Source: Apostichopus japonicus (taxonomy: Eukaryota; Echinodermata; Holothuroidea; Aspidochirotida; Stichopodidae). From it: a DNA stretch of 64,000 nucleotides. Below, one piece after another: positions 21,648 through 47,616 of the stretch (within the stretch, counting starts at the first letter, position 1; each line of letters begins with the position of its first letter). The stretch lies in NCBI RefSeq assembly GCF_037975245.1, contig NC_092569.1:26241168-26305167 (forward strand), written 5' to 3'. The translations under genes and the position numbers were made by a program. The notes below the pieces were generated by a model. That model was not told the origin of the DNA. It saw only the letters and a list, made by a program, of their open reading frames with translations, and did no database searches.

Positions 21648-22757
21648 CTAACAGAGACAACACCTGACCAATTTATCTTTGGCATACATACATGAATAAT
21701 TTGATGGACGTCCCAGACGGCAAAGAACAAATCTTGCTCCATTTGGGAGATATATCTAAGATTTAAAAGTCACCGTCTGGGGGCCGGGGCTACCATTTAC
21801 TAAATCTGTGATGTCATACTGCCACAGGCATCTGTAACCTTTGACCTCCTCTGATCGGACTTCATGCAAATCTTTTCTCTGGACCTACCCCTTGTAAAAC
21901 AAGACCTGCTCCAGTCGTAAGCTTTGAGACCTTATGCCATGTATAGAGATCACACTCCCATGCAGCTTTCCTGCCCCTTTCTTGGCAAATGCCTAAGGAC
22001 TTTTTTCCCCCCGGTTGTCTCCCAGTAAGCTGGGCCTTACTATTTGGTTGTCTGAACAGCAAATTTGGTTCTCGTAGGAGGGGCGGGCCCGGCAGCCCCT
22101 GAAAAACAGCGAAGCTAAGGCACTGAGCATTTCTGCCCTATATATTGTGTATAAGTACATTCACAAAGTATAGGCTGTGATACTACACTAGTAATAGTAA
22201 CAGTAGGTCATACGATAAATAGGTTTTTCGATCGAGACGCAAGCTTTTTTGCGGGACGCAAACTTTTTCTGGGGCTTGCATTAATAACATTACTGAATAT
22301 AAATTAATCGGAAATTTCCCGCCATTTTGTAACTAGACAGACTGCATGGTCGTTACTACGACGCAAAACTTTTTCCTCCTGCCTTTTCAGGTATATAAGG
22401 AAAACATCGCAGGAGCTATCAATACTAGCTCACTCTTTCCACAGTACCGTGATACACAACACCTAGCTAGGAGGAAAAAAATACAAATACACGGGTGTGC
22501 TAAAATAATCACGCGACGAAACGATATTTTCTTTAGCTAGCTAGGAGGTTTGCTATTGAGTGTGGGTTTTCATATTGTGTTGTTGACTGGACTGCATTAA
22601 TTAGTGTGTGAGCGAACGTACAAACCAAGTAGCTGTTATAACAAAAGGATCGACTGTCAGGGTTTTTTCAGTGATGTATTTCACAGTGTTGTGTCATTAT
22701 TTTAAACGTGCGGCGCCCGTTGACTGAGCAGTACATGCAAATAACTAAAAGTTACAG

Positions 22758-22780
22758 CAGGGAGTTGTAACAACTCCCTG
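22758..22780. mobile_element. 23-bp palindromic micro-insertion with 7-bp target duplication
   Basis: The arm CAGGGAGTTGT, one central A, and the exact inverted arm ACAACTCCCTG. GTTACAG lies directly on both sides (22751-22757 and 22781-22787). The same terminus occurs in the 28-bp palindrome at 47569-47596, also with a perfect 7-bp duplication. It looks like a transposon reduced to its two inverted ends. It lies in the RPS20 intron. Confidence 0.75.
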
Positions 22781-23039
22781 GTTACAGTATGTTAAATTGG
22801 GAGGCTGGACCAGAGCCATTTATTGGCGTCTCAAAAGCCGTCCCACTCAATTTCGGCCGTCTTTCATTTCGATCTAGCCGTCTCAAAGACGGCGAGACGC
22901 ATCGCTAGCTAAGACCCTGCTCACATGATAAGTGTCAGAATTGCTTTAAACTAGAGCACCAATGGTGCAGAAGCTCATACCTTTTCGAGCTGAAAATGTA
23001 GGGCCCACAAAACCAATTTTGGGCCCATGAGGGATACCC

Positions 23040-23074
23040 CCCCCCCCTCTGTTAGCAGAATCCTGGCCACACCA
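23040..23074 (-). mobile_element. Solitary hAT-like end
   Basis: A C-tract is followed by CAGAATCCTGGCCACACCACTGG, which resembles the right end of the CAGTGGCG family elsewhere in this window. No matching left end was found. Confidence 0.35.
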
Positions 23075-24023
23075 CTGGCTATAATTCCTATTTTCCCCTT
23101 TAAATCCTATTTTACCCACTCTCTCAAACAATACCACTGACCTACCCTATTAAACTTTCTCCCCTCTACCTTAGCAGACATAACTTCACAAGCACTCCCT
23201 ACAAGACATAACTTCACAAGCTGCCTACATACCTCAGGCTCAAAGACTTCTAAGAATCGACAAGTGCTGATTGGCTATAGGGCTCTCATGCTTACAGTTC
23301 AACAGTTAATAACAACTCCCAGTCCTGCTTTAATTCCACTAACCGCCTCTGCAGAGCTTAACCACAAATGTAAACAAACATTGTAGAGACTGGGAGACAA
23401 ATTAAAGGAGCTTTGGCAAAAAGTGAAGGCTCAGATTTTTTTAAACAATGGGGATTAATTGTAATTAATTAACTTTTGACCAACATAACCTTTTTTAGGC
23501 ATCACCTTATTCATACACAATCCAACAATCATCAGTTCAACTTTGAATATGATCCATCAAATTCTTGAGGAGATTGAGATATTTGAAAATATTACAAAGA
23601 ATGACCCCCGATGACCCCCTAATGACATTTGACCTCAATTTTCATTTTACAAGGGTTTCACAATTTCACTTCTGATGACCCCAAATGACCTTTGACATCC
23701 ACCAAAAACAATAGGCTTCTTTAACTCAATGTGGTACTTCTATCGAAACCAAAACCAGTCACCATTGTAATCATGTGATCGTTTACTACACAATAGCCAA
23801 TGTTTCCCCCCCCCCCCTTTCTTTAGACCATTGAAATTGAATGGCAACCCACCAAACCTATCCCCTAAAACACTGATCCATCCTACCGAATAACAATTCC
23901 CGAACGTTTCCTTACAAAAGTTATACAAACTAAAGGACTTCAAGATTCCTCCATATTTGGTTCGTATCCTATAACGTTAACAATTCCCAAACGTTTCCTT
24001 ATCAAGAATAATATTTCATCAAG

Positions 24024-24118
24024 GTTGGGCGAAATGACCAGGCTGGTTGGGCTAAATGACCAGGCTGGTTGGGCGAAATGGTAAGGTTGGGCAAAATGGC
24101 AGATGGGCGAAGTGACCA
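24024..24118 (+). repeat. Minisatellite, about 23-bp unit
   Basis: GGTTGGGCGAAATGACCAGGC recurs three to four times with substitutions, 55 bp beyond the RPS20 exon boundary, in the intron. Confidence 0.75.
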
Positions 24119-24171
24119 GCTTCCTTAGCTACTGCCAGACTGAGGCTTGACTCTTCAAAGAAAAAGGATAC

Positions 24172-24371
24172 AATCTGCTTGACAATCTCTGACGGGCTCT
24201 GGAGATCAATAATCCTTTTATGGATCCTCATCTGAAACCTGTCCCATGTCTTGGATCCTTCACCACACGGTGTCTTCCTGGTGGTGATCCGGAGGGTCTT
24301 GGTGGGCATCCTGACGGGTCCTTTGACCTTCAGGTTCTTGGCGAGAGCACCTGCTTTCAAGTCAGCACATA
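24172..24371 (-). CDS. RPS20: Ribosomal protein S20 (uS10), main coding exon
   Basis: RPS20 is a component of the small cytosolic ribosomal subunit head, and its loop reaches toward the mRNA channel. The 200-bp exon encodes [18 protein letters not shown], then [20 protein letters not shown], then [16 protein letters not shown] and ends at EIVKQI. This is nearly residue-for-residue the conserved uS10 core of animals. The acceptor is TTCCATTCAG. The exon begins in phase 1, completing the valine codon split with the exon at 25187-25289. The donor is ATT|GTATCC, a weak consensus, but the position is confirmed because the next exon resumes with TSISIEPG. No stops or frameshifts are seen, so it is likely functional. 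If translation ran through the donor, the C-terminus would lose similarity at once. Confidence 0.95.
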
Positions 24372-24983
24372 CTGAATGGAAAAAAAAAATGACAATACAC
24401 AATTTTCAAGTATTCGGAACAAAAAGTGTAACAAATGAAAGGAAAGTATACCATGATAGTGTTAGAGTATAATAGTGACATCACAGACCATTGTATAAGA
24501 GACATCACAGACTATAATCAAGGAAAGAAACACAAAAGGTACTTTGGGAGTTGAATAACTAAATTTAAATGCATCTTTATTTCACTCTGTGGTAACTGTC
24601 TTCAGGAAATAGCGGAAAGGGTTGGATTAACATTTAGAAAGATAAGACCAGTTACAATAGAAATGACAAAGAAAAACAAAGCCTGCTGCCTCACTAGGAC
24701 TTATGGGTATCTAATCTGGTCTATTAGAGCAAAGTGCTATGCAAAATTACCATACAAGCGCACAGATATATAAAATGACGTACACAGGAACCAAGGAACA
24801 GTATCTAATTAGAGACAAAATTCAGAATCTTATACAGAAACTGCACTTAACTAAATTCTTCCCTGTATTGCACATGTTCAAATTAAAAGCATTTCCTTGT
24901 GTCAAGGGTTTTCAAAATTCCACTGCTTGAAACGATCTCATTTTTACAATTCTACAGCTTGCTACCTACTTACCTCCCCCAAC

Positions 24984-25002
24984 CCCCCCCCCCCCCCCCC
25001 CA
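24984..25002. repeat. Poly-C tract
   Basis: A C run of about 18 bp in the intron between the two RPS20 core exons. Confidence 0.85.
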
Positions 25003-25186
25003 AATCAGGGACAAACTTTGTTATCCAGACATGTCAAATTTACTTTGAGGTTTACAAAGTTATTTTTCTGATATTAATAAATATTCTGAAATCACTTAAG
25101 TGTACAAAACATTTTTCGTTAAAAGCATCTATTTGGTAACTAATAAATATTGCCAGTTTCCAATCATTTTGAAATATATATCATAC

Positions 25187-25289
25187 CTTTCTCCAAGCTC
25201 TTGACATTCCTACTGGTGAGGGTGATCCTGATTCTGTGGGCCTGCGACTCTTCAGCTGGTCCCCCTTTACCTGGTTCTTTGTAGGTGGC
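25187..25289 (-). CDS. RPS20: Ribosomal protein S20 (uS10), N-terminal coding exon
   Basis: After a TTGATCTTCAG acceptor the exon encodes ATYKEPGKGGPAEES, then QAHRIRITLTSRNVKSLEK, and ends in phase 1 at a GAAAG|GTATGA donor. These are the expected first 34 residues after the initiator methionine. As in many ribosomal protein genes, the start codon and 5'-TOP leader probably lie in a tiny exon 1 farther upstream (higher coordinates). I could not find it before 26.5 kb, and beyond that lies the 11.6-kb transposon insertion. An in-frame ATG lies just upstream of the acceptor, so an alternative unspliced start cannot be excluded. Confidence 0.92.
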
Positions 25290-26055
25290 CTGAAGATCAA
25301 ACATGAAGTGTTAGACTGCAGGTCTGATAAAAATGTTGCTGGTTGTAATTCTGACAACTTGGAATTTCTCTTGCAGTTACTATCTTCATTGAATATGTCA
25401 CAATCTGACGGGAACCCAACCCCATCATGGCTGGAAAGATAAAAGCCTAGCAAGACTGTCTTGTGACAAGAAACAATGAAATTGTGCCTTATATCTTCAG
25501 AAAATCGTGTTACACATATGGAGCACAGGTTTTATTGGAACATGAAACAGGCCTAGTAACAGCCATACTCCAGAACAAACTGAAATTAAGGTGTGTAAAT
25601 TTCTTGCAGAAATTTCTGGTTTGCCAAAGTCGAAAGTATCTTTCACTGCAGATTTTCTGTTATTGCATACATGTCTTAAACCCAGCAAATAATAATTTCA
25701 CTAGTTGTAGATGATTCAAGCTGTCATTGGATGCTTATACTGAAGGCTTTGCTTAATGTTCACATCAGCCTGATTCAATATGTAAAGATAGTGCTCATGG
25801 AGGACATTAGTTTCAAGACACAGAACTTTAGTTTCCACCATTATTTTGAACAGCCACGGTGGTACCACACATTTTTTGTACAACACAGCATCTTTCTTTG
25901 CAAATATAAGTTTACACAGAACTGTAAGTAAAATAACTTCTTTTGTGCTGTCAATCAACTTATCACTGTTACTGCTCGCTTAGTTTAGTAGAAATAAAAT
26001 CAACTTCCCATCAATGATCCCATAGGAGAGAGAAAAAAACTGAAGACACCAAAAA

Positions 26056-26331
26056 TCAGACCTGATTAAAATTCTTAAAGTGCTTGTCCAAAGCATTCTT
26101 AAAACCTTTCACACTACTTGCAAGTACAACCTTCTCAGGCAAACCGTTCCACTCATTCACAACCCTATTAGAAAAAAAAAGACAATGACCTCTGGTACAA
26201 CCACTATTAGCAAACATGAAAGAGTCAGTGGCCGATAAATGGTCAAAACCATACACAATCTTGAAAACCTGAATCAAGTCACCATGTAACCTAACCAGGC
26301 TATCAGGCCCACTCTGATACACCCTATCCAC
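26056..26331 (-). pseudogene. LINE (CR1/L2-like) C-terminal fragment
   Basis: The minus strand encodes GDLIQVFKIVYGFDHL, TRGHCLFFSNRVVNEWNGLP, VVLASSVKGFKNALDKHF. This is the hallmark end of the CR1/L2-type reverse transcriptase ORF found in many animal genomes. Compared with the usual form, a segment between TRGH and FFSNR is shortened. No catalytic domain precedes it, so it is a 5'-truncated dead copy. Confidence 0.8.
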
Positions 26332-26366
26332 CTACTGTATGCATGCTCATCAAGGAGGGGGTGTGG

Positions 26367-26503: not shown

Positions 26504-26520
26504 TGTGGGGTTAGTGGCTA

Positions 26521-30737: not shown

Positions 30738-31231
30738 TGTAAATGAGCGATTAATACGATAGGCGTATTCTTGTGTGGGCGTACATGTATATAGTGTAGC
30801 GTTAGGCTATGGTGCGCTTGTATCGATGCATCGCTGTTTAATTGCGTACGGAGGTTTTTAAATGTATCGGGCGCGGCGCGCTGATTGTGTTGCGTGCGTG
30901 TAACTTGTGTGAGTGTGTGCGTGTGGTGTGAGAGAACTTTCTTGTGTTTGAAAATGTTTGGCAGAGCTTATGAATGAGGGAGTGAATACGGATGGTTGAC
31001 CGGTCAACACTTGTGAGCGAGTGAGTACGTTTGAGTTATATGTGTGTGTGTGTGAAGTGAGCTTGTTGTAAGTAAATTATATTTTATATTTAGTTTGCTT
31101 CAGTTAATTGTTATTAAATTAATTAAGTTTACCGTTAATCTTTTGTTCCTGCGTTATCTTTACAACTTCTCTCCCCTGAGTCATCATACTTTTGGGAGGG
31201 CACGCCAGTACGGAAAACCCCTAAACTTACA
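30738..31231 (+). repeat. Gypsy LTR 1 (494 bp)
   Basis: It starts TGTAAATGAGCG and ends AAACTTACA (TG...CA). Directly after it TTGGTGTCAGAAGTG can act as a primer-binding site complementary to a tRNA-Leu 3' end, as in SURL-type gypsy elements. This LTR lacks the 40-bp internal repeats of the other LTRs. Confidence 0.9.
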
Positions 31232-32291
31232 TTGGTGTCAGAAGTGTTGGAGTACTGGCTTAGTTTTAAAGATTTCGCAGAGGCACGTACGTAATTTTAG
31301 TTAAAAGAAAAGTAAACAAGTAAAGTTGTTAGCGAATTTTATTCAAGATTTTATTTCAATATCGTATTAAATTATTAAATCATATTAAAAGGAATTAAAC
31401 AAAATGGAAAAAGGAAAGTCAGGGGGAGATGCAAAATCCAAGATAAGTGGGAGGAAGATGTCTACATCATAGCTAAACAACCTAACCCGGACATACCAGT
31501 ATATGTGATATTTCCTGAAAATGGAAAAGGAAAGAAACGAGTAATCCACAGAAACGAGCTGAAATTGTGCACCTTGCAGGAAGACATGAAACCGGATGAT
31601 GATAGAAAATTAAACGTCCCCAACCTGAAAGAAAAAGTCATGCATCCACTATATACTTGGAGGAGGCCAATCAAGAAATCGAAGAGAAAAAGCCACAAGA
31701 AAATGCGGTTGAGAAAAAAACAAATTCTACTCAAATAAGAAGATCCGAAAGGAGTAATAAAGGATTTCCGCCGCCTCGTTTTGGAACTAATGCAATCACA
31801 ACGGACACCACTGTCTTTGACCTGGGGTGGGTTTAATTAGCTCATTGATTAGTTTATTCCGAATGTGTGACAATTTTTAAGACAATTACAAATTTTAGGA
31901 TGATTTTCTGATGCATTGATGCAAATTTGCCATAGACCTGTAAAGCTGTTCATATGTGTGCGCCCATACACGATGCATGTGGTGTTGTGGTTATTTATGA
32001 AAATTTTAGTTTATTTTTTTATTCTAAGTAGTCCTTTTATGTGGAGTTTGATAAGAAGTGGCTGATCTCGATTACTACAAATGTTACGGACTCGAGCTCC
32101 GTTTGAGAGAGAAGGACTTTGAGTCAAACTGGCTGTCTAAGCCTAGGCATAAGTACCTACCACCTTCTAGGTAGCGAGGAATGTGACTATTTTTAGTCTG
32201 TGTTTTAGGTGGAAAGAGAGTGTAAATGAGCGATTATAACGATTGATTAGTTTTAGACTTCAGGAGAAGTCTGCGTTTCAGGTGGAAAGAG
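31232..32291 (+). mobile_element. Deleted gypsy interior, unit 1
   Basis: It contains the primer-binding site, leader, an ATG-GAAAAAGGAAAG start and then directly the C-terminal end of integrase: WEEDVYIIAKQPNPDIPVY and RVIHRNELKLC, typical of the gypsy GPY/F-like tail. Capsid, protease, reverse transcriptase, RNase H and the integrase core are all missing. A polypurine tract (AGGTGGAAAGAG) abuts the next LTR. About 70 bp earlier there is a decoy copy of the tract plus LTR start. Confidence 0.8.
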
Positions 32292-32788
32292 TGTAAATGA
32301 GCGATTAATACGATAGGCGTATTCTTGTGTGGGCGTACATGTATATAGTGTAGCGTTAGGCTATGGTGCGCTTGTATCGATGCATCGCTGTTTAATTGCG
32401 TACGGAGGTTTTTAAATGTATCGGGCGCGGCGCGCTGATTGTGTTGCGTGCGTGTAACTTGTGTGAGTGTGTGCGTTTGAGTTATATGTGTGTGTGTGTG
32501 AAGTGAGCTTGTTGTAAGTAAATTATATTTTATATTTAGTTGGTTAAGTTATTAAATGATTCCAGTAAGCCGTTGTTCTAGTTAATTGTTGTTAAACTAT
32601 TCAAGTATATCGTTGTTCTAGTTAATTGTTGTTAAACTATTCAAGTATACCGTTGTTCCAGTTAATTGTTATTACATCCTTCAAGTTACCGTTAATCTTT
32701 TGTTCCTGCGTTATCTTTACAACTTCTCTCCCCTGAGTCATCATACTTTTGGGAGGGCACGCCAGTACAGAAAACCCCTAAACTTACA
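32292..32788 (+). repeat. Gypsy LTR 2 (497 bp)
   Basis: Same ends as LTR 1. It lacks the GTGGTGTGAGAGAAC...GAGTACG block of LTRs 1, 3 and 4, but has three copies of a 40-bp tandem unit starting CGTTGTTCTAGTTAATTG (from 32571). Confidence 0.9.
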
Positions 32789-33851
32789 TTGGTGTCAGAA
32801 GTGTTGGAGTACTGGCTTAGTTTTAAAGATTTCGCAGAGGCACGTACGTAATTTTAGTTAAAAGAAAAGTAAACAAGTAAAGTTGTTAGCGAATTTTATT
32901 CAAGATTTTATTTCAATATCGTATTAAATTATTAAATCATATTAAAAGGAATTAAACAAAATGGAAAAAGGAAAGTCAGGGGGAGATGCAAAATCCAAGA
33001 TAAGTGGGAGGAAGATGTCTACATCATAGCTAAACAACCTAACCCGGACATACCAGTATATGTGATATTTCCTGAAAATGGAAAAGGAAAGAAACGAGTA
33101 ATCCACAGAAACGAGCTGAAATTGTGCACCTTGCAGGAAGACATGAAACCGGATGATGATAGAAAATTAAACGTCCCCAACCTGAAAGAAAAAGTCATGC
33201 ATCCACTATATACTTGGAGGAGGCCAATCAAGAAATCGAAGAGAAAAAGCCACAAGAAAATGCGGTTGAGAAAAAAACAAATTCTACTCAAATAAGAAGA
33301 TCCGAAAGGAGTAATAAAGGATTTCCGCCGCCTCGTTTTGGAACTAATGCAATCACAACGGACACCACTGTCTTTGACCTGGGGTGGGTTTAATTAGCTC
33401 ATTGATTAGTTTATTCAGAATGTGTGACAATTTTCAAGACAAATTACAAATTATATATATAGGATTATTTTCTGATGCATCGATGCAGATTTGCCATAGA
33501 CCTGAAGAGCTGTTCATATGTGTGCGCCCATACACGACGCATGCGGTGTTGTGGTTATTTATGAAATTTTGAATTTTTTTATTTTAAGTAGTCCTTTTAG
33601 GTGGAGTTTGATAAGAAGTGGCTGATCTCGATTACTACAATTGTTACGGACTCGAGCTCCGTTTGAGAGAGAAGGACTTTGAGTCAAACTGGCTGTCTAA
33701 GTCTAGGCATAAGTACCTACCACCTTCTAGGTAGTGAGGAATGTGACTATGTTTAGTCTGTGTTTCAGGTGGAAAGAGTGTAAATGAGCGATTAATAAAG
33801 ATTGACTATTTTTTAGACTTCAGGAGAAGTCTGCGTTTCAGGTGGAAAGAG
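32789..33851 (+). mobile_element. Deleted gypsy interior, unit 2
   Basis: Near-identical to unit 1 through the leader and integrase tail, with the same deletion junction, and diverging slightly after 33400. It ends with the same polypurine tract before LTR 3. Confidence 0.8.
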
Positions 33852-34446
33852 TGTAAATGAGCGATTAATACGATAGGCGTATTCTTGTGTGGGCGTACAT
33901 GTATATAGTGTAGCGTTAGGCTATGGTGCGCTTGTATCGATGCATCGCTGCTTAATTACGTACGGAGGTTTTTAAATGTATCGGGCGCGGCGCGCTGATT
34001 GTGTTGCGTGCGTGTAACTTGTGTGAGTGTGTGCGTGTGGTGTGAGAGAACTTTCTTGTATTTGAAAATGTTTGGGAGAGCGAATGAATGAGGCAGTGAA
34101 TAAGGATGTATGGTTGACCGGCCAACACTTGTGAGTACGTTTGAGTTATACTGTATGTGGGAAGTGAGCTTGTAAGTAAATTATATTTTATATTTAGTTG
34201 GTTAAGTTATTAAATGATTCCAGTAAGCCGTTGTTCTAGTTAATTGTTGTTAAACTATTCAAGTATATCGTTGTTCTAGTTAATTGTTGTTAAACTATTC
34301 AAGTATACCGTTGTTCCAGTTAATTGTTATTACATCCTTCAAGTTACCGTTAATCTTTTGTTCCTGCGTTATCTTTACAACTTCTCTCCCCTGAGTCATC
34401 ATACTTTTGGGAGGGCACGCCAGTACAGAAAACCCCTAAACTTACA
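33852..34446 (+). repeat. Gypsy LTR 3 (595 bp)
   Basis: Full block structure with three 40-bp tandem units. It is followed by the same primer-binding site and leader up to about 34640. Confidence 0.9.
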
Positions 34447-34645
34447 TTGGTGTCAGAAGTGTTGGAGTACTGGCTTAGTTTTAAAGATTTCGCAGAGGCA
34501 CGTACGTAATTTTAGTTAAAAGAAAAGTAAACAAGTAAAGTTGTTAGCGAATTTTATTCAAGATTTTATTTCAATATCGTATTAAATTATTAAATCATAT
34601 TAAAAGGAATTAAACAAAATGGAAAAAGGAAAGGAAAGAACAAAA
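34447..34645 (+). mobile_element. Gypsy leader after LTR 3, broken at an inversion junction
   Basis: It matches the leader of units 1 and 2 up to ATGGAAAAAGGAAAG near 34634 and then switches to inverted LTR sequence. Confidence 0.75.
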
Positions 34646-34771
34646 TATAAAATATAATTTACTTACAACAAGCTCACTTCACACACACACACATATAACT
34701 CAAACGTACTCACTCGCTCACAAGTGTTGACCGGTCAACCATCCGTATTCACTCCCTCATTCATAAGCTCT
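34646..34771 (-). repeat. Inverted internal LTR fragment
   Basis: This is the reverse complement of the middle of LTR 1 (about 30963-31090), sharing the LTR-1-specific GACCGGTCAACAC and GAGCGAGTGAGTACG words. It is the downstream end of the inverted gag-protease block. Confidence 0.85.
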
Positions 34772-35234
34772 GTAAGTATCCTTGACCTAGACTGCTGAAA
34801 AGCCTCTGTTGTAAATGCCTGATAACATTCAAACCTAGTAAGCATGGTGTCTGTGGTGTAGTTGATTCCTTTACAATTAAAATTCCAGCCTTTGGTAAGT
34901 CAATGCCCATCACTTTCACGCCAACCTCCATATAAGCTGAATATGGAAGTGACAGTCCATTTGCCGCTTTTAGTTTCAGCCAGGTGATGTCTTCTTTGGG
35001 CCTTTTTGAATCTCTGAAGTGTCTGTTTGCATATTTTTCATCAATTGTCGTGACTTGCGATCCGGTGTCTAGAACGCATTTCGTTTTGACGCCCGCAATT
35101 TCTATATACATTGTCACATAGTCTCCTACAAAGTTCTGCTCATTATGTTTATGATCCTGTTGAGCACTGGACCCTTGTTGCAAACATTTAAATTCCATTG
35201 TTTGGTCCTCAACAATGGACTCAACTAGTTTAAA
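34761..35234 (-). CDS. Gypsy aspartic protease, C-terminally truncated
   Basis: Minus-strand frame offset by -1 from gag. It contains the catalytic LDTGSQVTTID motif, a flap-like ANGLSLPY segment and the CLLGLNVI motif, which together define a retropepsin-type aspartic protease. The first ATG is at 35198, but expression is expected by -1 frameshifting from gag at 35228-35234. After LLGLNVI the frame runs into LTR sequence and stops, so reverse transcriptase, RNase H and integrase are deleted. Confidence 0.85.
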   Translation of the reverse strand, partial: FKLVESIVEDQTMEFKCLQQGSSAQQDHKHNEQNFVGDYVTMYIEIAGVKTKCVLDTGSQVTTIDEKYANRHFRDSKRPKEDITWLKLKAANGLSLPYSAYMEVGVKVMGIDLPKAGILIVKESTTPQTPCLLGLNVIRHLQQRLFSSLGQGYLQSL

Positions 35235-36220
35235 TGATGTGTCGTGGGTGCTTGTTGTCTGCTATCTCCGGTTGGGTATCGGTTTCTGGATCTATATTGA
35301 TCGTTGGGATAGTATCTTGGTCTAGGCGGTATCATTGGTCTGCTGAGTCTGGGTGAATCCCTTGGCTGATGATAATGTCCGGTAGGACAATTTCTGGCAA
35401 AATGCCCCTTTTCTTGGCAGGTCCAGCAGGTAATGTCAAGGTGTCTGTGCTGCGGCTGATTTGATGCATTTTGCAAACCATTCATCTCTGTCACTTGTTG
35501 TTGAATAGAGGTCAGTCCCAGTCTTATTTCTTTTATTTCTTCCCACAAGATCTTTCTTTCCTGGTCATCTCTCTCCTTCTGTGTTCTGTCAATGCTAGAT
35601 GTCTTTTGTAGGTTTACCAGCGCCATCGTCTCTTCATTTACGGACAGTTCGCTTTCAATGGCGATGCTTTCGTTCTTTAGTTCGGAAAAAGTCACAGTGG
35701 GTTTTTTTCTTATCTCTCTTTTCATCTCCGAACGAATGGAGGGGCTCCTGATGCCTTCCACAAATTTATCCCGTAGCATGTTTTCTTGTACTAACTCTGG
35801 CGACCGGCCTTTAACCTTTCTTTCCAACATTTGGAGTGTTAGAGCATAGTTCCTAATGCTCTCGCTCCGTTCTTGCGTCAAGGCATAAAACTTTGCCAGC
35901 AAACTTGTAACTGGAGTTTTATCCCCGTATATATCGCGTAATATATCCAGCATCTCTTTAGCCGTGATCCCCCCTCCCATAACCAGGATCTCTCTACGCG
36001 CTTCCCCACCCAGGTATCGCAATAAAATAATTGATTTGTGGTCTTCTGGAGTATTCCACGTTTTCCATGCCATCTTCAACTCTAATTCCCAGTCCCCAAA
36101 AGAAATGTCATTTGCATTCCCCTTGAAAACTGGAATTTTTACGTCCATCGGGACGTATGACAGGGGCATGATAATGCGGTCACCACTGTCTTCAGGGGGG
36201 CCGCTAGGGGAATTTTCCAT
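35225..36220 (-). CDS. Gypsy Gag polyprotein, intact frame
   Basis: 331 codons from ATG at 36220 to TAG at 35225. Residues about 20-200 form a retrotransposon capsid-like region (FGDWELELKMAW, LRYLGGEARREI, FYALTQERSESIRNYA, FVEGIRS). A coiled-coil-prone segment covers about 205-245. A CCHC zinc knuckle C-x2-C-x4-H-x4-C lies at residues 265-278, and a basic, proline-rich tail follows. This is the nucleocapsid layout of Ty3/gypsy Gag. It is inverted relative to the surrounding LTRs, with only 8 bp of primer-binding site and 10 bp of LTR end at its 5' side. It is the only long intact frame of the composite. Confidence 0.9.
   Translation of the reverse strand: MENSPSGPPEDSGDRIIMPLSYVPMDVKIPVFKGNANDISFGDWELELKMAWKTWNTPEDHKSIILLRYLGGEARREILVMGGGITAKEMLDILRDIYGDKTPVTSLLAKFYALTQERSESIRNYALTLQMLERKVKGRSPELVQENMLRDKFVEGIRSPSIRSEMKREIRKKPTVTFSELKNESIAIESELSVNEETMALVNLQKTSSIDRTQKERDDQERKILWEEIKEIRLGLTSIQQQVTEMNGLQNASNQPQHRHLDITCWTCQEKGHFARNCPTGHYHQPRDSPRLSRPMIPPRPRYYPNDQYRSRNRYPTGDSRQQAPTTHHLN
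35228..35234 (-). promoter_or_regulatory. Candidate -1 ribosomal frameshift site UUUAAAC
   Basis: The heptamer TTTAAAC (X-XXY-YYZ in the gag frame) lies directly before the gag stop TAG, and the protease frame is exactly -1. The same heptamer is a well-known slippery sequence in other RNA systems. A downstream pseudoknot was not assessed. Confidence 0.6.
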
Positions 36221-36232
36221 TTTCGACACCAA

Positions 36233-36242
36233 TGTAAGTTTA
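36233..36242 (-). repeat. 10-bp inverted LTR terminus
   Basis: TGTAAGTTTA is the reverse complement of the LTR end TAAACTTACA. It is all that remains of the 5' LTR of the inverted gag-protease block, and it directly abuts the TG of LTR 4. Confidence 0.75.
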
Positions 36243-36797
36243 TGTAAATGAGCGATTAATACGATAGGCGTATTCTTGTGTGGGCGTACATGTATATAGT
36301 GTAGCGTTAGGCTATGGTGCGCTTGTATCGATGCATCGCTGCTTAATTACGTACGGAGGTTTTTAAATGTATCGGGCGCGGCGCGCTGATTGTGTTGCGT
36401 GCGTGTAACTTGTGTGAGTGTGTGCGTGTGGTGTGAGAGAACTTTCTTGTATTTGAAAATGTTTGGGAGAGCGAATGAATGAGGCAGTGAATAAGGATGT
36501 ATGGTTGACCGGCCAACACTTGTGAGTACGTTTGAGTTATACTGTATGTGGGAAGTGAGCTTGTAAGTAAATTATATTTTATATTTAGTTGGTTAAGTTA
36601 TTAAATGATTCCAGTAAGCCGTTGTTCTAGTTAATTGTTGTTAAACTATTCAAGTATACCGTTGTTCCAGTTAATTGTTATTACATCCTTCAAGTTACCG
36701 TTAATCTTTTGTTCCTGCGTTATCTTTACAACTTCTCTCCCCTGAGTCATCATACTTTTGGGAGGGCACGCCAGTACGGAAAACCCCTAAACTTACA
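36243..36797 (+). repeat. Gypsy LTR 4 (555 bp)
   Basis: Like LTR 3 but with two rather than three 40-bp tandem units. It ends CTTACA and is followed by TAAG. Confidence 0.9.
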
Positions 36798-36801
36798 TAA
36801 G

Positions 36802-38346: not shown

Positions 38347-38871
38347 AATTATAGAATACAGGGCCATTCATTAACTCTTCCCAGCATCCGGATGCGCGGT
38401 GTGTCTGTACATGTCCGTCAGAGCCGTATATAGAGCTCTATATACGGCTCTGATGTCCGTACACGTATGACGTCCTCTAAAATTCCATCACGTATTTCAT
38501 TTTGACTCAGCATCCGCGCATCCACCCCAGGAGTACTAGGAATGGACTTAAATAATTTTCGAAAAGTTTCAACATATACCATCATGTATTTCCAATACTG
38601 AAAGTCCCGTATGTACGAAGATATTCCACATCAATAGTGTGTCGTTCTTAAAAGGTATCCGTACATGTGCGACACCCTCTAAAATTCCACTACAGAAGTA
38701 CTAGGAAAGGACTTAATTTTTGACTCCGCATCCAAGCATCCACGCATCCACTCAAAAAGAAAGAACAGGGACTTTGACATTTTTTACTCACATACGTACT
38801 AGGGTGAGACTGAGCATCCACGCATCCGGATGCTCAGATAGAATCATCGAGTGGCCCTGTATTCTATAATT
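38347..38871. mobile_element. 525-bp DNA element with inverted ends
   Basis: The left end AATTATAGAATACAGGGCCA is an exact inverted copy of the right end. Inside each end lie repeated GCATCC(A/G)CGCATCC and GCATCCGGATGC words. No target duplication is clear and no coding capacity is seen. It carries the 34-bp palindromic micro-insertion at 38419. Confidence 0.7.
38419..38452. mobile_element. 34-bp perfect palindrome with 8-bp target duplication
   Basis: The arm CAGAGCCGTATATAGAG is directly followed by its exact inverse. ATGTCCGT flanks it on both sides (38411-38418 and 38453-38460). The 8-bp duplication and CAG...CTG ends fit a hAT-like mini-insertion consisting only of terminal repeats. 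Confidence 0.8.
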
Positions 38872-40019: not shown

Positions 40020-41124
40020 CAGTGGCGGCGGAACCGGGGGGGGGGGGGGGCTTGGGGGGCTCAGCCCCCCCAATGAAAAAGTTGAGGGGGCAAATGCATG
40101 ATAAGCCCCCCTAATATTTACCAAGGCTCCGAAACGTGCATCTGCCCATTTTTCAATGCATACTTGTCGATCTGTCCGATGCACACGTATACTATATAGG
40201 TGTAATAATTTTAGTAATTGCTGGGGGACCCTGGTCCCTCGGCCCGTCCCCTGGCTATAGACCACATTGTCACCCCAACCGCGTCTTCACGCCCCGTGAA
40301 AAGTGGAAGCAGTTAGTGTGAGTACCGGTAAGCGTAACACAACTTCGTCTTAGGCCAATGACTTGCCTCATTTCAGCCAGTTCTCCAACATCCCCTTACT
40401 TAGTGGCGGAGCGTCCATATGTACAGTCAGGGGCGGATCCCCCCCCCCCTCCTGACGGACTCAAATGGACTGCTGGCGCCCTTTTCAGCTTTTCACTACT
40501 TTTAACTTATTCGCGATTATTGACTATTTTATTGCGCTCTCATATACCTATTGACATTTGTCATATTCTGTTGGTGTAATTTTCCGACAAAATGGCGACG
40601 ACACCTATTTATTCTCCGTTTATCTGCAAATTAGCAAGGCCCGGAAAGGGTCATTTCCTGCAATCTAGGGAGTAACTTTACTCAAAAATTTTCTGTACGC
40701 TCCGCGCCAACCTGTGGTGGCGCTCCGCTTAGATAGTGTCGAAAGCGCTCCTACAGGCCATTCTTGCCCCCCCCCCTGACCAATACCCCTAGCTCCGCCA
40801 CTGCCCTTCCTACACTCAAAAACGTCTTTGCGAGTACACTACGAGTAATAGCTACTCTCTTAAAACACCATCGAATATACAAATTACAATGTTTTTACAG
40901 ACTTTTACGTGCAATCTGAGAAATTGCAGGCTTGAGACCCATATTTTAGGGCTAGGTATTCGCAGCATAAAACACTCGAAAAGTGCCGTTTCCGGCCATC
41001 TGGGGGTTTGAAAAAACCCAAAATTTTCTTGTACGCTCCGCGCCAACCGATGGTGGCGCTCCGCTTAGATAGTCTCCACACATTAGCCCGCCCCCCCAAT
41101 AATTTTTCCGTTCCGCCGCGCCTG
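40020..41124. mobile_element. hAT-type element, 1.1 kb, host of a nested hAT
   Basis: The left end CAGTGGCGGCGGAACCGG and the inverted right end CCGTTCCGCCGCGCCTG are flanked by perfect 8-bp duplications TCATTATG (40012-40019 and 41125-41132). It is non-coding. Its right half is homologous to 13965-14196. The subterminal hairpin motif is at 41031-41073. Confidence 0.88.
40401..40803. mobile_element. hAT-type MITE, 403 bp, nested in the element at 40020
   Basis: Left TAGTGGCGGAGC and right CCTAGCTCCGCCACTG, with flanking CCCTTACT/CCCTTCCT (7 of 8). A copy of the subterminal hairpin motif is at 40692-40735. Confidence 0.75.
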
Positions 41125-41405: not shown

Positions 41406-41762
41406 AGGGTGTGAAGACTCGCGCAAAAAGAACTTCTCATGCCGGTAATCTGACCTAGTTTCGAATGAGGTGTAACAGAAGTGTTAGACACCACCATCGG
41501 TCCCAGAAAATACACGCACAGCTTGCTACTGTCGGTAATTAGACACAAGTGTATACAGTCAATACATGCAGCTACGGTCAATACCCACAACACAGTCTAC
41601 ATAGCAGCGATGGACATCTCAGGTCCAGATAAAAGATAACAAGGTATCACGTTTCACTATTGTCTGCATTTTGTAGCGACAAGAAGAAAACTTCACCTGC
41701 AAGCAACAGAAAGTTAACTTTTTCAGAGCGCGGCACGTGGTTTGGGGCGAGTCTGAATGCCT
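41406..41762. mobile_element. TTAA-flanked MITE (Kolobok/piggyBac-like), copy 2
   Basis: TTAA at 41402-41405 and 41763-41766. Ends and body match the copy at 11043-11377; this copy has an extra block near 41580-41610. Confidence 0.78.
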
Positions 41763-42803: not shown

Positions 42804-42805
<2 letters not shown>

Positions 42806-42858
42806 TATGGATCATACCTTAGGTCGACAGTTACATTGACTTACACACTACATATCAT

Positions 42859-42925
42859 GGGTATATATATATATATATATATATATATGCATATATATAT
42901 GCATATATATATGCATATATTTATA

Positions 42926-42975
<50 letters not shown>

Positions 42976-42979
42976 TATA
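42859..42979. repeat. (TA)n microsatellite with TATGCATA interruptions
   Basis: Alternating TA with several TGCA variants. The following AATAAAAAGTAAGATTTAGCA also occurs after an AT tract at 45635. Confidence 0.95.
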
Positions 42980-43084
42980 TAAATTTTTAATAATAATAAA
43001 AAGTAAGATTTAGCATATACATCAGTAGTAAACAGAGATGTTTCTTGAAATTCTCCCTGACCTTTCAACTCAATTTTAATGCAG

Positions 43085-43170
43085 CGGACGGATATTGTAA
43101 TGGTATCGGTACTGGAGCAATGGTGACCTCTGGAAGATTACAAATTCTTGATCCCTGGTTCGAGATCAAG
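43085..43170 (+). CDS. C-type lectin domain, upstream exon
   Basis: After a pyrimidine-rich AATTTTAATGCAG acceptor the exon encodes DGYCNGIGTGAMVTSG and ends WFEIK at an AAG|GTGAAA donor. The C--IGT-A-(L)VT pattern suits the first half of a C-type lectin-like domain, where the cysteine pairs with one near the domain end. The exon ends in phase 0, matching the phase-0 start of the exon at 43495. The domain is a carbohydrate- or ligand-binding fold, usually secreted or at the cell surface. Signal peptide, start codon and earlier exons were not found. Similarity of this exon alone is weak; the neighbouring exon gives it weight. Confidence 0.55.
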
Positions 43171-43494
43171 GTGAAACAATGTATTATTATTTCATATAAT
43201 TTACGATTATCAACTATAGGCCCTTTACAGGTCTGACAAAATGAACCAACATATTATATTTATGTTATTGCGTTATATCTAAGGTTATATACACTGAAAT
43301 ACATGGCTTCGTGGAAACTACACGTTAAATTTGGGAGAAAACATCAAATTTTCTTAATTAATGAATAATTTGCCACGGTACACACATTAAGTGCGGAAGC
43401 TTAGATAGAAGGGTCATCCGTTTATTTAAGAATGTCCAAATTGCAAATGTAAGAATTCATTTAATGATTAGTATCCGTTTCTACTTTTTCGTAG

Positions 43495-43625
43495 ACAAAT
43501 TTGCTTAGAAAAGCTGGTAATCTATTTGCTGAAGGTGGATATCTGTGGGTAGGAATCACCGACGATCCTGTGGAAGGTCACTTACGGTGGGTGTCAGATG
43601 AGAGCCCAATTGAGCAATCAGAAGG
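43495..43625 (+). CDS. C-type lectin domain, WVGITDD exon
   Basis: After a TACTTTTTCGTAG acceptor the exon encodes a helix-like RKAGNLFAEGG, then LWVGITDDPVEGHLRWVSDE, and ends at a GAAGG|GTAAGT donor in phase 2. The W-(I/V)-G-(L/I)-x-D followed by G-x-(L/F)-x-W is the core strand signature of C-type lectin domains. The third part (W--GEPN---ED-C and the last cysteines) would be in a later exon and was not found before the LINE at 43990 or up to the window's right. Start, full length and sugar specificity cannot be judged. Marine invertebrates often have many such immune or biomineral lectins; that role is inference only. Confidence 0.75.
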
Positions 43626-43989
43626 GTAAGTTAGGCAAAGTTGTCTACTGACAACAACATAATAGTAGTAAGAAGGAGTGAGGGCGCCATCATTAAATGT
43701 ACCATTCGGTTTTTTTTTCTGGGGTGGCGATGACGAACAGGGCTGCATGATGCATTATTTGCATTTTGATTTGCCAACATGGATGGCTAGAGACTCGTTC
43801 AGCAGTTATTAGGCTAAACTTATAAGTAAACTAGATTATGAGAAATACCTTAATAAAATAAAATAAAAATCTGACAAATACCCTTCATCAAGCAGGTAAC
43901 CATAGTAACGAAAATATACAGCTGTTTCCAGTTCTCCAAGATTTGATTAGTCCAGAACAAACTTAGTTTTTAAAAGGGAGATTTATAGG

Positions 43990-44275
43990 TGAAAATATCC
44001 GTCTTAACTTAGACCTCATTGATTACTGAGACGACCACTCTACCCCAGGTGCCCTCCTATTGTAAGATTATGAGAAAGCTCTTGACTGCCTTGATTGGGA
44101 TTTTATGCTTAAAACGCATTCTTTCTTTAACTTCTGACCGATTTTTATACAGCTGGATCCGAACCTTGTTTAGCAACATTTTGTCCGGCATTTCAAACAA
44201 TAGACGTTTGGCGAATTATTCCAAGGTTTCTTATGCAAGGGTGTCCGTTAACCCCCTACATCTATTCTATATATA
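43990..44275 (+). pseudogene. L1/Tx1-like LINE reverse transcriptase fragment A
   Basis: With frameshifts the plus strand reads IDY-DDHSTPGALLL-DYEKA, then LDWDFMLKTHSFFNF, WIRTLFSNILSGISNN and QGCPLTP. This is the A-to-B motif region of an L1/Tx1-type reverse transcriptase. It is decayed, with stops. Confidence 0.75.
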
Positions 44276-44280
44276 TATTC

Positions 44281-44306
44281 TTTTCCAACTGATTACGATT
44301 TTCATT
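44281..44306 (+). repeat. SINE tail-like segment
   Basis: TTTTCCAACTGATTACGATT matches the inverted tail of the SINE at 52961-52985 and again runs directly into a (TA)n tract. Confidence 0.55.
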
Positions 44307-44314
44307 TATTCATT

Positions 44315-44319
<5 letters not shown>

Positions 44320-44408
<89 letters not shown>
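44320..44408. repeat. (TA)n microsatellite
   Basis: Long alternating TA separating two pieces of LINE reverse transcriptase. Confidence 0.95.
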
Positions 44409-44411
<3 letters not shown>

Positions 44412-44424
44412 ATAGTAATATCAC

Positions 44425-44815
44425 TACTTATGCTTCAAATAATGGTTTCTTGTCAAGGTATTTCGGTGTTGGCGAGGTGTCCGTCAAGGGTGTCCTCTCA
44501 ACCCTAACCTTTTTATCACGTATACTGAAATATTAAACTCATTAATTAAGACTGAATCCTCTCATCAATGGGATAGATATTTCTGGTGTCTCCTTTAATA
44601 TCTCCCAGTGTGCGGATAACACGGTCGTCATCACAGACTTTATTTATATATAAGTCTCTCTCAGAGGCATATCAAATATCAAATCTAATTTCGAGTGTGT
44701 CAGGGCTTACTATTAATATCGATAAATCAAATGTGTTTCTCATTGGTCCTTTTGTTAATCTCTACAGAGATATTAAGCTTTCAAAGTTGTTGACAATTGA
44801 CAATTTATAATCATG
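44425..44815 (+). pseudogene. L1/Tx1-like LINE reverse transcriptase fragment B
   Basis: One frame reads [20 protein letters not shown]; later frames give INGIDISGVSFNISQ-ADNT (the ADDT catalytic motif with a substitution) and ISSVSGLTINIDKSNVFLIG. The QGCPL block is present both here and in fragment A, so two partial copies lie either side of the microsatellite. Confidence 0.78.
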
Positions 44816-45099
44816 GACGTTAAATATGAATCTAAGAGACTGACTTCGGTGAGCTTGCGGCATTGATAAGCCAATGATGGCTTCTTCGCGAGTTCCCGAG
44901 GATCTAACATACATACAAACATACCCTGATTACATTATTTGACGACACATTTTGACGATACCATGTCTTTTCGGCATCAAATCTGTTCACTTAAATCCAG
45001 GTGCTTTAAGAATCTCAGAAATATTTCTAAAATGCGGTCTATCTTACTAAGTCTGAGTTAAGCACTATTGTCCAATCCATGGTTATTTCGCATATTTAT

Positions 45100-45503
45100 T
45101 ATTGTAACTCACTTTATTTTGGTTTCAACCAATATTTATATGATCAACTCCAATCTGTTCAAAATTTTGCTGCAAGAATGATATATGATATATATATAAA
45201 TCAAGGAGAGGGGTGTACTTTAAAATAATATTGATTGTGTTAAAGTCTGTTAGAGGACTGGGTCCTAAATATATCCATGATATATTGGTAACCTCTGATC
45301 GTAGCAGAAATACGTTATTGATAGAGCCTCGAGTTAAATCCTCGTATGGGTATCGCTCGTTTGCGAAGGCTGGACCTAAATTGTGGAAGAAGCTTCCTGA
45401 CAGCCTTAAAGAAATCCAAAATGTTGTTACTTTTAAGAGGCAATTAAAACACTACTTATTTGTCAATGGTTCTGATTTCAGCCAGAATCTCGACCAGGTT
45501 TGA
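45100..45503 (+). pseudogene. LINE (CR1/L2/jockey-like) C-terminal fragment
   Basis: It reads LQSVQNFAARMIYD, then after a frame change VRGLGPKYIHDILV, YGYRSFAKAGPKLWKKLP and FKRQLKHYLF before a stop. This is the standard C-terminal end of CR1/L2/jockey-type LINE proteins. It differs in style from the L1/Tx1-like fragments just upstream, so it is probably a separate insertion. Confidence 0.75.
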
Positions 45504-45510
45504 GTTTTGT

Positions 45511-46200
45511 ATCGTTACTTTCAGATTTATTTAGTTGTTTTCCAGCACAGCAGTGCACGCAGTTTTCTGTAGTAGTTGTGCTTATAAGCCTGTATTATTA
45601 TTTTTATAAATACATACATATATATATTTTAATAACAATAAAAAGTAAGATTTAGCAACAGCTGACATGTACTTTACTACTCTACTCGGTTTAATTTCAC
45701 GATTCATAGAAAATGTCATAAAAGTTAACGCTGAATAACAAATCGCACCATAAAACCATTTTATCGCAGAGTAGGCCTACGCTTGTGTAATACAATAACA
45801 GAGATATATCAATCGTATACATGCATGCAACAAAGCAAAGATTAATGAAAGAATAGGATGATAAGAGAAGGTTGAAAAGAGGCAGAGTCGTCAGTGTGTT
45901 TACTTATGAATGTTCTTAGCAATCAATAAACGATGTTTTATAGAGATTCAAAATGATACATGAGTGATTGCTAAAGATAATAAAGAATATGATATCCCAT
46001 CACTCATTCGTTGACAATATAACCGTTATATCATTAAAGATATAGATCAGGGTAAAGACAAAATCACACCTGCATATAGTACACTGAGAGGGTGAAATGA
46101 AAAGCTGTATTTTGAGCTGTATATGGTTAAGTTGATTTTGTTAGATTCTGACCAAGTCTCAGTTTAGTTGCACATAATTTGTTACCCCATAATATCTCAC
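45511..46200. other. Stretch without a recognised gene
   Basis: AT-rich and carrying the shared AATAAAAAGTAAGATTTAGCA word near 45640; nothing else recognised. Confidence 0.4.
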
Positions 46201-46212
46201 TAAGTAATCGAT

Positions 46213-46955
46213 ATGGTTGTCACGTCACCGCTGAATCGATCACAGTACAAGCAACACAACATCGTTCAACCGATCGCATCGCCGTACAATCGATCACATC
46301 ACATTACAGTCGACCACAAAACCATACAATCGATCACATCACAGTACAAGCAACACAGCATCGTTCAACCGATCACATCACCGAATAGTCGACCACAACA
46401 CCATACAATCGATCACATCACAGTACAAGCAACACAGCATCGTACAACCGATCACATCACCGAACAGTCGACCACAACACCATGCAATCGATCACATCAC
46501 AGTACTATCGATCACATCACATTACAGTCGACCACAAAACCATACAATCGATCACATCACAGTACAAGCAACACAGCATCGTTCAACCGATCACATCACC
46601 GAATAGTCGACCACAACACCATGCAATCGATCACATCACAGGACAGTCGATCACATCACAGTACAGTCGATCACATCACATTACAATCGACCACAACACC
46701 ATACAATCGATCACATCACAGTACAGTCGATCACATCACAGTACAGTCGATCACATCACATTACAATCGACCACAACACCATACAATCGACCACATCACA
46801 GTACAAGCAACACAGCATCGTACAACCGATCACATCACCGTACAGTCGACCACAACACCATACAATCGATCACATCACAGGACAGTCGATCACATATCCG
46901 TACAATCGATCACATATCCGTACAATCGATCACATAACCATACAATCGATCGCAT
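46213..46955. repeat. 20-bp minisatellite with 79-bp higher-order units
   Basis: About 37 units of 19-20 bp built on CGATCACATCACAGTACA(A/G) and CGACCACAACACCATACAAT. Sub-blocks of four units (20+19+20+20 = 79 bp) recur, e.g. 46331 and 46410. Several frames stay open through the array because the units lack stops; this gives a repetitive artefactual frame of 299 codons rather than a likely protein. Confidence 0.92.
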
Positions 46956-47568
46956 TGCCGTGTGTGTGTGTAGGTCTGCATATCCATGTTACTCTGTAAA
47001 TGAAATTTATTCCGCTTTAACTTTTCATATATTTTGTATGAAAAGCCCGTTCTGTTTTATGAGTGTATTTAAATATTATTATTATCATTTTTGTTATGAA
47101 AGGCCTATATAGTTGGAGCAATAAACCCAATGAACCGCGTTTGATTAATATGACATTTACTTACGGGGTTTTATTAATCATGAGTTTGTAAGGCTTATTA
47201 TATATTCTATTTGAAAATTGCATTTCTTTTTAATATCGTCTACCATGTTCAAAACGTGATATCTGTGCTATTATCACAGGGACGTAGCTAAGGCCTGATG
47301 ATTGGGGGGGTGTAGTGGCTGAAATTCCAACTGGATGGGTTTTGGAGTCAGAAAATTCCGACTGCTGCCTTGTACCCCCCCCCCCCCCGCACTCATCGTC
47401 AACGATACAGTCAGTGTCAGTCAAAAACCCCATCTTTCGCGACTGCACTTTTGTTCCGAACTTTTTTCAATACATTTGTACCTTATGGGGCAAAGTTTTT
47501 GCTTATGTTGATAGCACTTTTAAACTTCCGTAGATTAGCATTGAGTGTTTTAATTGTATACCATAGAG

Positions 47569-47596
47569 CAGGGAGTTGTTCTGGAACAACTCCCTG
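47569..47596. mobile_element. 28-bp palindromic micro-insertion with 7-bp target duplication
   Basis: The arm CAGGGAGTTGTTC, a TG spacer, and the exact inverted arm. CATAGAG is on both sides (47562-47568 and 47597-47603). It has the same 11-bp terminus as the palindrome at 22758. Confidence 0.78.
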
Positions 47597-47616
47597 CATA
47601 GAGACAAAGTATATCT

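Follow-up and report, generated by a model that had tools for sequence, protein, structure and literature searches.

Palindromes in the window

The window, a stretch of 64,000 nucleotides of the Apostichopus japonicus genome, contains three short palindromes that are bracketed by exact and flush direct repeats. They had been described in a sequence-only reading, and re-reading of the sequence confirmed the palindromes and their repeats at all three loci. The features are given below, together with one unoccupied site:

22751..22757, no strand assigned: left copy of the target-site duplication (TSD) GTTACAG, 7 bp, exact, family A
22758..22780, no strand assigned: putative excision scar of family A, 23 bp in length (11 and 13 nt from the two ends, overlapping by 1 nt)
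22781..22787, no strand assigned: right TSD copy GTTACAG, family A
38411..38418, no strand assigned: left TSD copy ATGTCCGT, 8 bp, exact, family B
38419..38452, no strand assigned: putative excision scar of family B, 34 bp in length (17 nt from each copy of a 31-bp terminal inverted repeat (TIR), no loss or insertion at the join)
38453..38460, no strand assigned: right TSD copy ATGTCCGT, family B
41593..41685, minus strand: empty paralogue of the family-A scar site L101 (93 bp, gapless, a single TSD copy, no scar)
47562..47568, no strand assigned: left TSD copy CATAGAG, 7 bp, exact, family A
47569..47596, no strand assigned: putative family-A excision scar, 28 bp (the commonest sampled 28-mer with one base changed)
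47597..47603, no strand assigned: right TSD copy CATAGAG, family A

The sequence-only reading saw a single shared design of near-gapless perfect palindromes in these sites. All three are real, yet repeats of 7 bp mark one family, A, and those of 8 bp another, B, with arms of 11-13 nt in the window copies of A and 17+17 nt in that of B. Furthermore, the palindrome at 47569-47596 differs from the commonest family-A 28-mer only by an A to C change at position 13, and because this 28-mer (17 nt of one end, 12 nt of the other, 1-nt overlap) is itself an imperfect palindrome, the near-perfect symmetry of the window copy looks accidental. The same palindrome sits within a hAT-like stretch (47277-48935). 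When the window was scanned for perfect arms (8 nt or longer, up to 60 nt apart) that are flanked by a flush exact repeat of 6-10 bp, and low-complexity matches were dropped, the three known palindromes and nothing else came up. The control scan (repeat of 7-10 bp) found no site in 19 of 20 first-order Markov copies of the window and one site in the remaining copy.

Genome-wide distribution and target-site duplications

A genome-wide search for the palindromes, as proposed in the earlier reading, yielded 882 places for family A (ends CAGGGAGTTGT) and 113 for family B (ends CAGAGCCGTATA) in the 672-Mb genome of the species, counted with patterns that miss scars with shorter arms; the reversed patterns of both families, used as controls, had no match. 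The flanking repeats behave as the TSDs they had been taken for: they differ between sites and are mostly 7 bp long in A and 8 bp in B. Among 43 family-A rows, 23 have an exact 7-bp and one an exact 8-bp duplication, 10 have one mismatch in 7 bp, and in nine the duplication is worse, that is, poor or absent. The 36 family-B sites comprise 24 with an exact 8-bp duplication, five with one mismatch, two with exact 7 bp, two with exact 9 bp, which share the same flanks, and three that are worse. The target of family A is GTNNNAC-like: the 28 distinct exact 7-mers have T at position 2 in 24 and A at position 6 in 24, and G at position 1 and C at position 7 in 14 each.

Unoccupied paralogues with one TSD copy and no scar exist within the genome for both families. 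In family A they were found for L101 (against 41593-41685 of the window), for L039 (against L034 and L035), and for L051, L056 and L036 (each against other units of its own repeat), in family B for L077 and L082. Some of these alignments include 1-3 gaps, and that of L101 is gapless over 93 bp.

In other sequence collections, the family-A palindrome pattern had no match in viral_contigs, and the 17-mer CAGAGCCGTATATAGAG of family B occurred there in three contigs (two of which contain one and the same stretch), in each case lacking an adjacent partner arm; these were not accepted as copies. Eleven family-A hairpins in genome_contigs, from bacterial genomes and MAGs, were rejected as relatives, their longest flush direct repeat being 2 bp. 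The end sequences, searched as text in the open-access literature, led to no transposon paper by title, and the titles that searches of that literature returned named neither these families nor a genome-wide survey of P-type scars.

Junction diversity and a limit near nucleotide 17

The scars are 23 to 35 bp long, rarely more, and most of them consist of two element ends, neither longer than 17 nt, with a small overlap or insert at the join. This structure bears out the proposal that the sites are made only of two fused TIRs. After removal of sites with shared 10-bp flanks and of rows over 45 bp, 36 junctions of family A (23-34 bp) and 34 of family B (24-45 bp) were available. They represent 19 distinct sequences in A and 18 in B; one 28-mer prevails in A (14 of 36 sites), and none of the four 34-mers of that family is a perfect palindrome. 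The longer arm measures 17 nt in 25 of the A and 20 of the B junctions, a count made with 17-nt templates and therefore blind to longer arms. Two B junctions are 17+17 and one is 17+1+17. The sampled scars retain 11-17 nt of each end, a range set by the chosen pattern, and sites with a single arm also occur (L106, L149).

The family-B loci permit a view beyond the templates, as arms of 27 nt or even longer were admitted in the search for B scars. Twenty copies of CAGAGCCGTATATAGAG are present in the 36 B-scar loci; 18 of them diverge from the parent, in which AG follows, by nt 19, and the remaining two diverge at nt 20. In 15 of these copies the 17-mer is followed by A, like that of the parent. 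Family-B ends adjoining the scars at L078 and L113 match the parent as far as nt 19. The limit of family-B scars thus appears to lie near nt 17, within two bases, and need not be exactly 17.

Long copies and P-type transposases

Longer relatives with the same ends were found for family B only. Its long copies are mostly about 4.2 kb in size, with longer end pairs at C1:11191248-11196184, C3:15845893-15851611 and C3:16839214-16844263, and in all four intact copies that were read a 31-nt inverted repeat is identical at both ends and an exact 8-bp TSD is present; the parental repeat accordingly extends 14 nt beyond nt 17. Two convergent pairs of family-B ends lie 676 and 800 bp apart, judged by coordinates. 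No intact copy of family A was detected among its 57 exact ends on contig C1; the reading of this family covered C1 and the window and, on C2, 11 palindromes, nine further ends and one pair of ends. One candidate (C1:4962001-4967468) was rejected, as its ends are two separate scars with different TSDs, and L091 and L092 have no partner end within about 6 kb. Family A presumably had a long parent as well, and because no intact element was found, the limit of its arms is read from the scars themselves.

P-type RNase H domains gave 45 and 16 matches in the genome of the species and none in 14 control genomes. None of these matches falls within a family-B copy among the 30 pairs listed on C1-C4, and for one B element two inner pieces of 450 bp had no match to a P family. 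A repeat family with P transposase (four loci, three of them read over 8.3 kb) contains neither CAGGGAGTTG nor CAGAGCCG, and its three 8.3-kb copies were rejected as parents, no terminal repeat plus 7-8 bp TSD having been found near their edges; the remaining P loci were viewed as 3-kb loci or table rows.

Origin of the palindromes

In our view the three palindromes are probably footprints (excision scars) left by cut-and-paste transposons of two families with a P-like mode of action. A full-length element would insert and duplicate 7 bp (A) or 8 bp (B) of its target. On excision the transposase would cleave one strand at the end of the element and its complement some 17 nt into the TIR, so that each flank would retain a 3' tail of 17 nt of element sequence. 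Where neither a sister nor a homologue served to fill the break, end-joining would anneal or trim the two tails and fill in. The product would be two TSD copies that enclose at most 17 nt from each element end, and it would be palindromic since one and the same inverted repeat forms both ends. The many sites, the TSDs, the empty sites, the stop near nt 17 of an intact 31-bp parental repeat in family B and the diversity of the junctions are observed, and the P-type domains in the genome also speak for this history; the enzyme and the repair pathway behind the scars we infer. It counts against the proposal that no P transposase was tied to either family, that nine of the 43 A rows have a poor or absent TSD, and that fly junctions of this type came from mutants.

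The sequence-only reading had asked whether such units moved as such or are collapse products of larger elements. Mobility of the 23-34 bp palindromes themselves, with a transposase recognising their short ends in trans, would agree with the many sites, the different TSDs and the empty paralogues, and with the prevalence of a single 28-mer in family A. Nevertheless, we regard it as very improbable. DNA of this length is too short and stiff for pairing its own ends in a known transpososome, and neither family has the fixed length and near-constant sequence of a mobile MITE. The movement of such units is unsupported because the variation of lengths and centres within each family is that predicted by the joining of two tails of about 17 nt; some sites have one arm only, and family B has full-length parents whose repeat continues past the scar limit. 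The part of the earlier proposal that derives the sites from larger elements is upheld, yet a random collapse, in which long or medium elements lost their interior by slippage, cruciform loss or ordinary deletion without a transposase, seems equally remote. The B end pairs 676 and 800 bp apart indicate that internal deletions may occur, but random loss should often retain more than 17 nt of an end, whereas the retained lengths cluster at 17 nt and end no later than nt 19, and the sheer number of places in both families likewise speaks against it.

A further alternative is that the scars were left by a superfamily other than P that also produces long terminal tails, which we hold to be unlikely, although less so than the two preceding explanations. 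Ends of the type CAG...CTG with 8-bp TSDs are typical of hAT elements, hAT-like elements are present in the window, and in the listed family-B copies no P transposase was detected. However, hAT excision leaves just small changes at the TSD and not the terminal repeats, and it is not known to leave 11-17 nt of each of them; the arms retained by the scars, as sampled with the chosen pattern, do not fit excision of this type. Family B fits the 8-bp TSD of hAT and family A does not. The 7-bp TSD, an anomaly in the hAT frame of the earlier reading, ceases to be one if family A is Galileo-like: its GTNNNAC-like target with a 7-bp TSD is as in Galileo, and family B shares with Drosophila P a 31-bp repeat beginning with CA and an 8-bp TSD. 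The 17-nt stagger of P is moreover termed unusual and atypically long in a review (PMC7776569), which speaks against another superfamily with such tails.

If the palindromes are P-like excision scars, each independent one goes back to a single repair in the germline, carried out on tails of 17 nt that are nearly identical. At 23-35 bp such scars resemble the smallest transposons and are probably easily missed by repeat annotation. As products of excision, they count lost insertions, reveal families that perhaps have no remaining copies, and preserve the way in which a germline joins a break with two defined ends. A further matter on which they bear is how general the unusual 17-nt stagger of the fly enzyme is among P-type transposases. 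It is conceivable, and we propose it tentatively, that P-type excision has left a very large fossil record in this genome, with at least two and perhaps six families, of which the two that were counted contribute at least hundreds of scars, that family A is a ghost transposon known mainly or only by its scars, and that the set, with each independent scar a repair event of its own, is a natural archive in which alternative end-joining is documented across evolutionary time.

Comparison with known systems

The P transposase is reported to cut 17 nt inside 31-bp repeats and to generate 8-bp TSDs (PMC7776569), and the 17-nt tails that the Drosophila enzyme leaves give such palindromes upon end-joining (PMC7776569, PMC2895639). 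The apparent stop of family-B scars near nt 17 of a 31-bp repeat matches Drosophila P elements. The closest counterparts are the P{wa} excisions in Drosophila spn-A mutants, described as two TSD copies around at most 17 nt from either end, with junctions that are blunt or have templated inserts or a microhomology of 1-3 nt (PMC2895639). The scars here have a similar composition, with arms of up to about 17 nt, and the same junction types. The fly footprints were produced experimentally at a single locus in mutants that lack Rad51, and most products in wild-type flies carry repair synthesis (PMC2895639). The scars here are natural, lie in another genome, occur at hundreds of places, have other end sequences and include one family with 7-bp TSDs.

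Family B resembles Drosophila P (PMC7776569) in its 31-bp TIR, its 8-bp TSD and its ends starting with CA, and differs in its end sequence, in the size of its common copies (about 4.2 kb) and in the P domain, which was undetected in the listed copies. The animal P-type element Pdre2 / THAP9 of zebrafish likewise has ends starting with CA and an 8-bp TSD, although its ends are 13 bp long and of another sequence (PMC10983969). Galileo, a member of the P superfamily, is described with 7-bp TSDs of consensus GTANTAC (PMC4168063). Family A differs from it in end sequence and in that no intact element or transposase was found, and shares with it a 7-bp TSD (once 8 bp) and a target that tends to start with GT and to end with AC.

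Three probable excision scars in the window

The three palindromes of the window, whose arms and flanking direct repeats had been described from the sequence alone, are exact on reading. They are probably the excision scars of two cut-and-paste families, A and B, working like P elements; a scar would comprise the duplication, up to about 17 nt of each element end, and the duplication again.

22758-22780, family A, class 11+13 with a 1-nt overlap
38419-38452, family B, class 17+17
47569-47596, family A, its common 28-mer altered at a single base

A scan for perfect arms 8 nt or longer with flush direct repeats of 6-10 bp, from which low-complexity matches were discarded, returned only these sites in the 64 kb. 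In a Markov control with repeats of 7-10 bp, one of 20 first-order copies gave one match, the others none. The two 7-bp sites and the 8-bp site belong to different families, because duplication length differs by family. The window would thus have lost three elements, one of them out of the hAT-like stretch 47277-48935.

The window looks eukaryotic, and mobile DNA seems abundant in it. Stretches of hAT-like sequence with CAG...CTG ends lie at 40020-41124 and 47277-48935 (8-bp duplications exact) and at 2649-4871 (one mismatch). A repeated block with 134-bp inverted arms (30738-36798) adjoins gag-like (PNMA, zinc knuckle) and aspartic-protease frames, and 61084-61951 holds a 97-bp tandem repeat of about nine copies with 98% matches. 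The degenerate palindrome at 18778-18819, its arms resembling the family-B end in 13/17 and 15/17 nt and lacking a clear duplication, is possibly an old scar.

Probable scars and their duplications in the genome

In the genome (671.6 Mb, 35 contigs, the window being C9:26241168-26305167) family A, as CAGGGAGTTGT-N(0-30)-ACAACTCCCTG, occupies 882 places, nested ones included, and family B, as CAGAGCCGTATA-N(0-30)-TATACGGCTCTG, 113; these patterns call for 11 or 12 nt from each end and therefore pass over shorter scars, and both patterns reversed gave no places. Single ends outnumber palindromes (family A CAGGGAGTTGTTATGG, 978+999 places; family B CAGAGCCGTATATAGAG, 266+255). Not all places are independent events, because some scars lie in repeats that have since multiplied; flanks are shared among L094-L096, L103, L104, L139, L141-L143, L150 and L155, and among L101, L107, L136, L144 and L152 (L, locus read from the genome).

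Sites were sampled from contigs C1-C2 for family A and C2-C9 for family B, together with the window. The 43 family-A rows (42 sites, one nested site being entered twice) comprise 23 exact 7-bp duplications, one exact 8-bp, ten with one mismatch in 7, four with two mismatches and five worse. Among 36 family-B sites, 24 have exact 8-bp duplications, five one mismatch, two exact 7-bp, two exact 9-bp (with identical flanks), and three are worse. Duplications differ among sites; family A has 28 distinct exact 7-mers, with T at position 2 and A at position 6 in 24 each, G the commonest first base (14) and C the commonest last (14).

Empty sites, which the sequence-only reading had proposed to look for as orthologues, were found as paralogues in both families, for a minority of scars. 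The scar and one duplication copy were deleted, and the remainder was aligned across the junction to unoccupied paralogues. For family A, L101 matches window 41593-41685 (93 bp, 95.7%, gapless), L039 matches L034 and L035, and L051, L056 and L036 match sister units of the repeats that hold them. In family B such paralogues were found for L077 (129 bp, 96.1%, gapless) and L082. Several alignments other than those of L101 and L077 contain 1-3 gaps. L025 and L031 do not give clean empty sites and are left out of the count.

Scars or tiny transposons

The palindromes had been read as two fused terminal inverted repeats, either mobile themselves or remnants of larger elements. Junctions were compared at 36 family-A and 34 family-B sites, after dropping sites with common 10-bp flanks and rows above 45 bp (a single family-A row, of 50). 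Most are plain sums of two element ends, in agreement with the fused structure, and the sequences are varied, with 19 distinct in family A and 18 in family B. Both observations favour scars over tiny transposons, and mobility of the palindromes as such is not borne out. The commonest family-A join is 17+12, with a 1-nt overlap in 14/36 and without in 4/36; in family B it is 17+13 (7/34), 17+17 occurring twice and 17+1+17 once. None of four family-A 34-mers is perfect. Copies of the ends or of the duplication turn up in longer sites, for instance in L084, a family-B site of 45 bp, and in L033, a family-A site where the duplication occurs three times; L106 and L149 retain one arm alone. The longer arm measures 17 nt in 25/36 family-A and 20/34 family-B sites, as counted with 17-nt templates blind to longer arms, for which comparison with the family-B parent, the intact long element, is the independent check.

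Longer relatives with the same ends exist for family B and were not seen for family A on C1. Family-B ends pair up convergently, in most cases some 4.2 kb apart; of the 30 pairs listed by coordinates on C1-C4, two are short, at 676 and 800 bp. All four copies with ends read carry the same 31 nt (CAGAGCCGTATATAGAGAGAGTTTGGCCAAC) at both ends and are flanked by exact 8-bp duplications. Tandem copies at C2:30232144-30240616 are separated by 8 bp (junction read), as are, by coordinates alone, those at C2:24170053-24179198 and C3:9796575-9804963. Past nt 17 the parent continues as AGAGTTTGG. The 17-mer CAGAGCCGTATATAGAG occurs 20 times in 36 family-B scar loci; 18 copies diverge from the parent by nt 19 (A at nt 18, as in the parent, in 15/20), and two, one-armed ends adjoining scars at L078 and L113, diverge at nt 20. 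Parent bases 18-28 as a block are absent from all these loci. Since the copies part from the parent there, family-B scars end at, or at most two bases from, nt 17 of 31.

Family A may be a ghost family: all 57 exact CAGGGAGTTGTTATGG ends on C1 were read, and no intact element was seen among them. Fifty-two of these ends have the partner motif CTCCCTG no more than 40 nt away, with one mismatch allowed. The other five are L139, with an eroded partner in a repeat that carries scars in other copies, L100 and L106, with one arm beside a duplication recognisable by eye, and L091 and L092, with no partner end within about 6 kb. T occupies position 17 in 81 of 1977 family-A ends.

Possible further scar families

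Four scar-like sites outside families A and B came out of an exact scan of 280 kb (the window and loci above 1.5 kb, picked for containing scars, hence not a genome-wide density). CATGGAG ends occur at two of these, together with 7-bp duplications; the other two have 8-bp duplications. Five simulations gave no match. A second scan with other limits recovered two of the four, with none in four simulations. At a single target, L079:1501-1608 carries three consecutive palindromes, the outer two of family B and the middle one of another family, with TTTACCAT between each and after the last. The scar-like palindromes of other families seen in these scans include those at L078:423-451 and L085:2101-2128 and 2138-2165, two having CATGGAG ends and 7-bp duplications; the L085 pair is adjacent, with overlapping duplications.

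Comparison with P elements

P-type RNase H domains are present in the genome (PF21787, 45 matches; PF21789, 16), with no matches in 14 control genomes. Open frames of 764-789 aa surround some of them; those at C17:17643182, C21:1210892, C19:10287233 and C19:10313262 are candidate transposases or host genes. The 30 listed pairs of family B (C1-C4) contain no such domain. Two pieces from the interior of one copy gave no P-family match (the sole Pfam match, NagA_N, is below cut-off), and CAGGGAGTTG and CAGAGCCG are absent from one P-transposase repeat family. The 4.2-kb copies are therefore either non-autonomous, served in trans, or belong elsewhere. They are accordingly described as P-like in behaviour and are not assigned to the P superfamily.

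The footprint mechanism is already known from Drosophila; within the literature searched, both families, the 7-bp version and such scar numbers in one genome are new. P transposase makes staggered cuts (PMC7776569): one strand is cut at the 3' end of the element, the other 17 nt into the 31-bp repeat. In spn-A (Rad51) mutants, PMC2895639 describes end-joining products after P excision with the duplication, at most 17 nt, at most 17 nt, and the duplication, joined by short microhomologies, bluntly or with templated inserts; in wild-type flies repair synthesis comes first in most recovered products. Family B shares with the P element the 31-bp repeat and the 8-bp duplication that P transposase makes (PMC7776569), whereas the family-A duplication is 7 bp. 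Fly joins keep at most 17 nt per end (PMC2895639); the longer arm in both families here, as counted with 17-nt templates, is commonly 17 nt.
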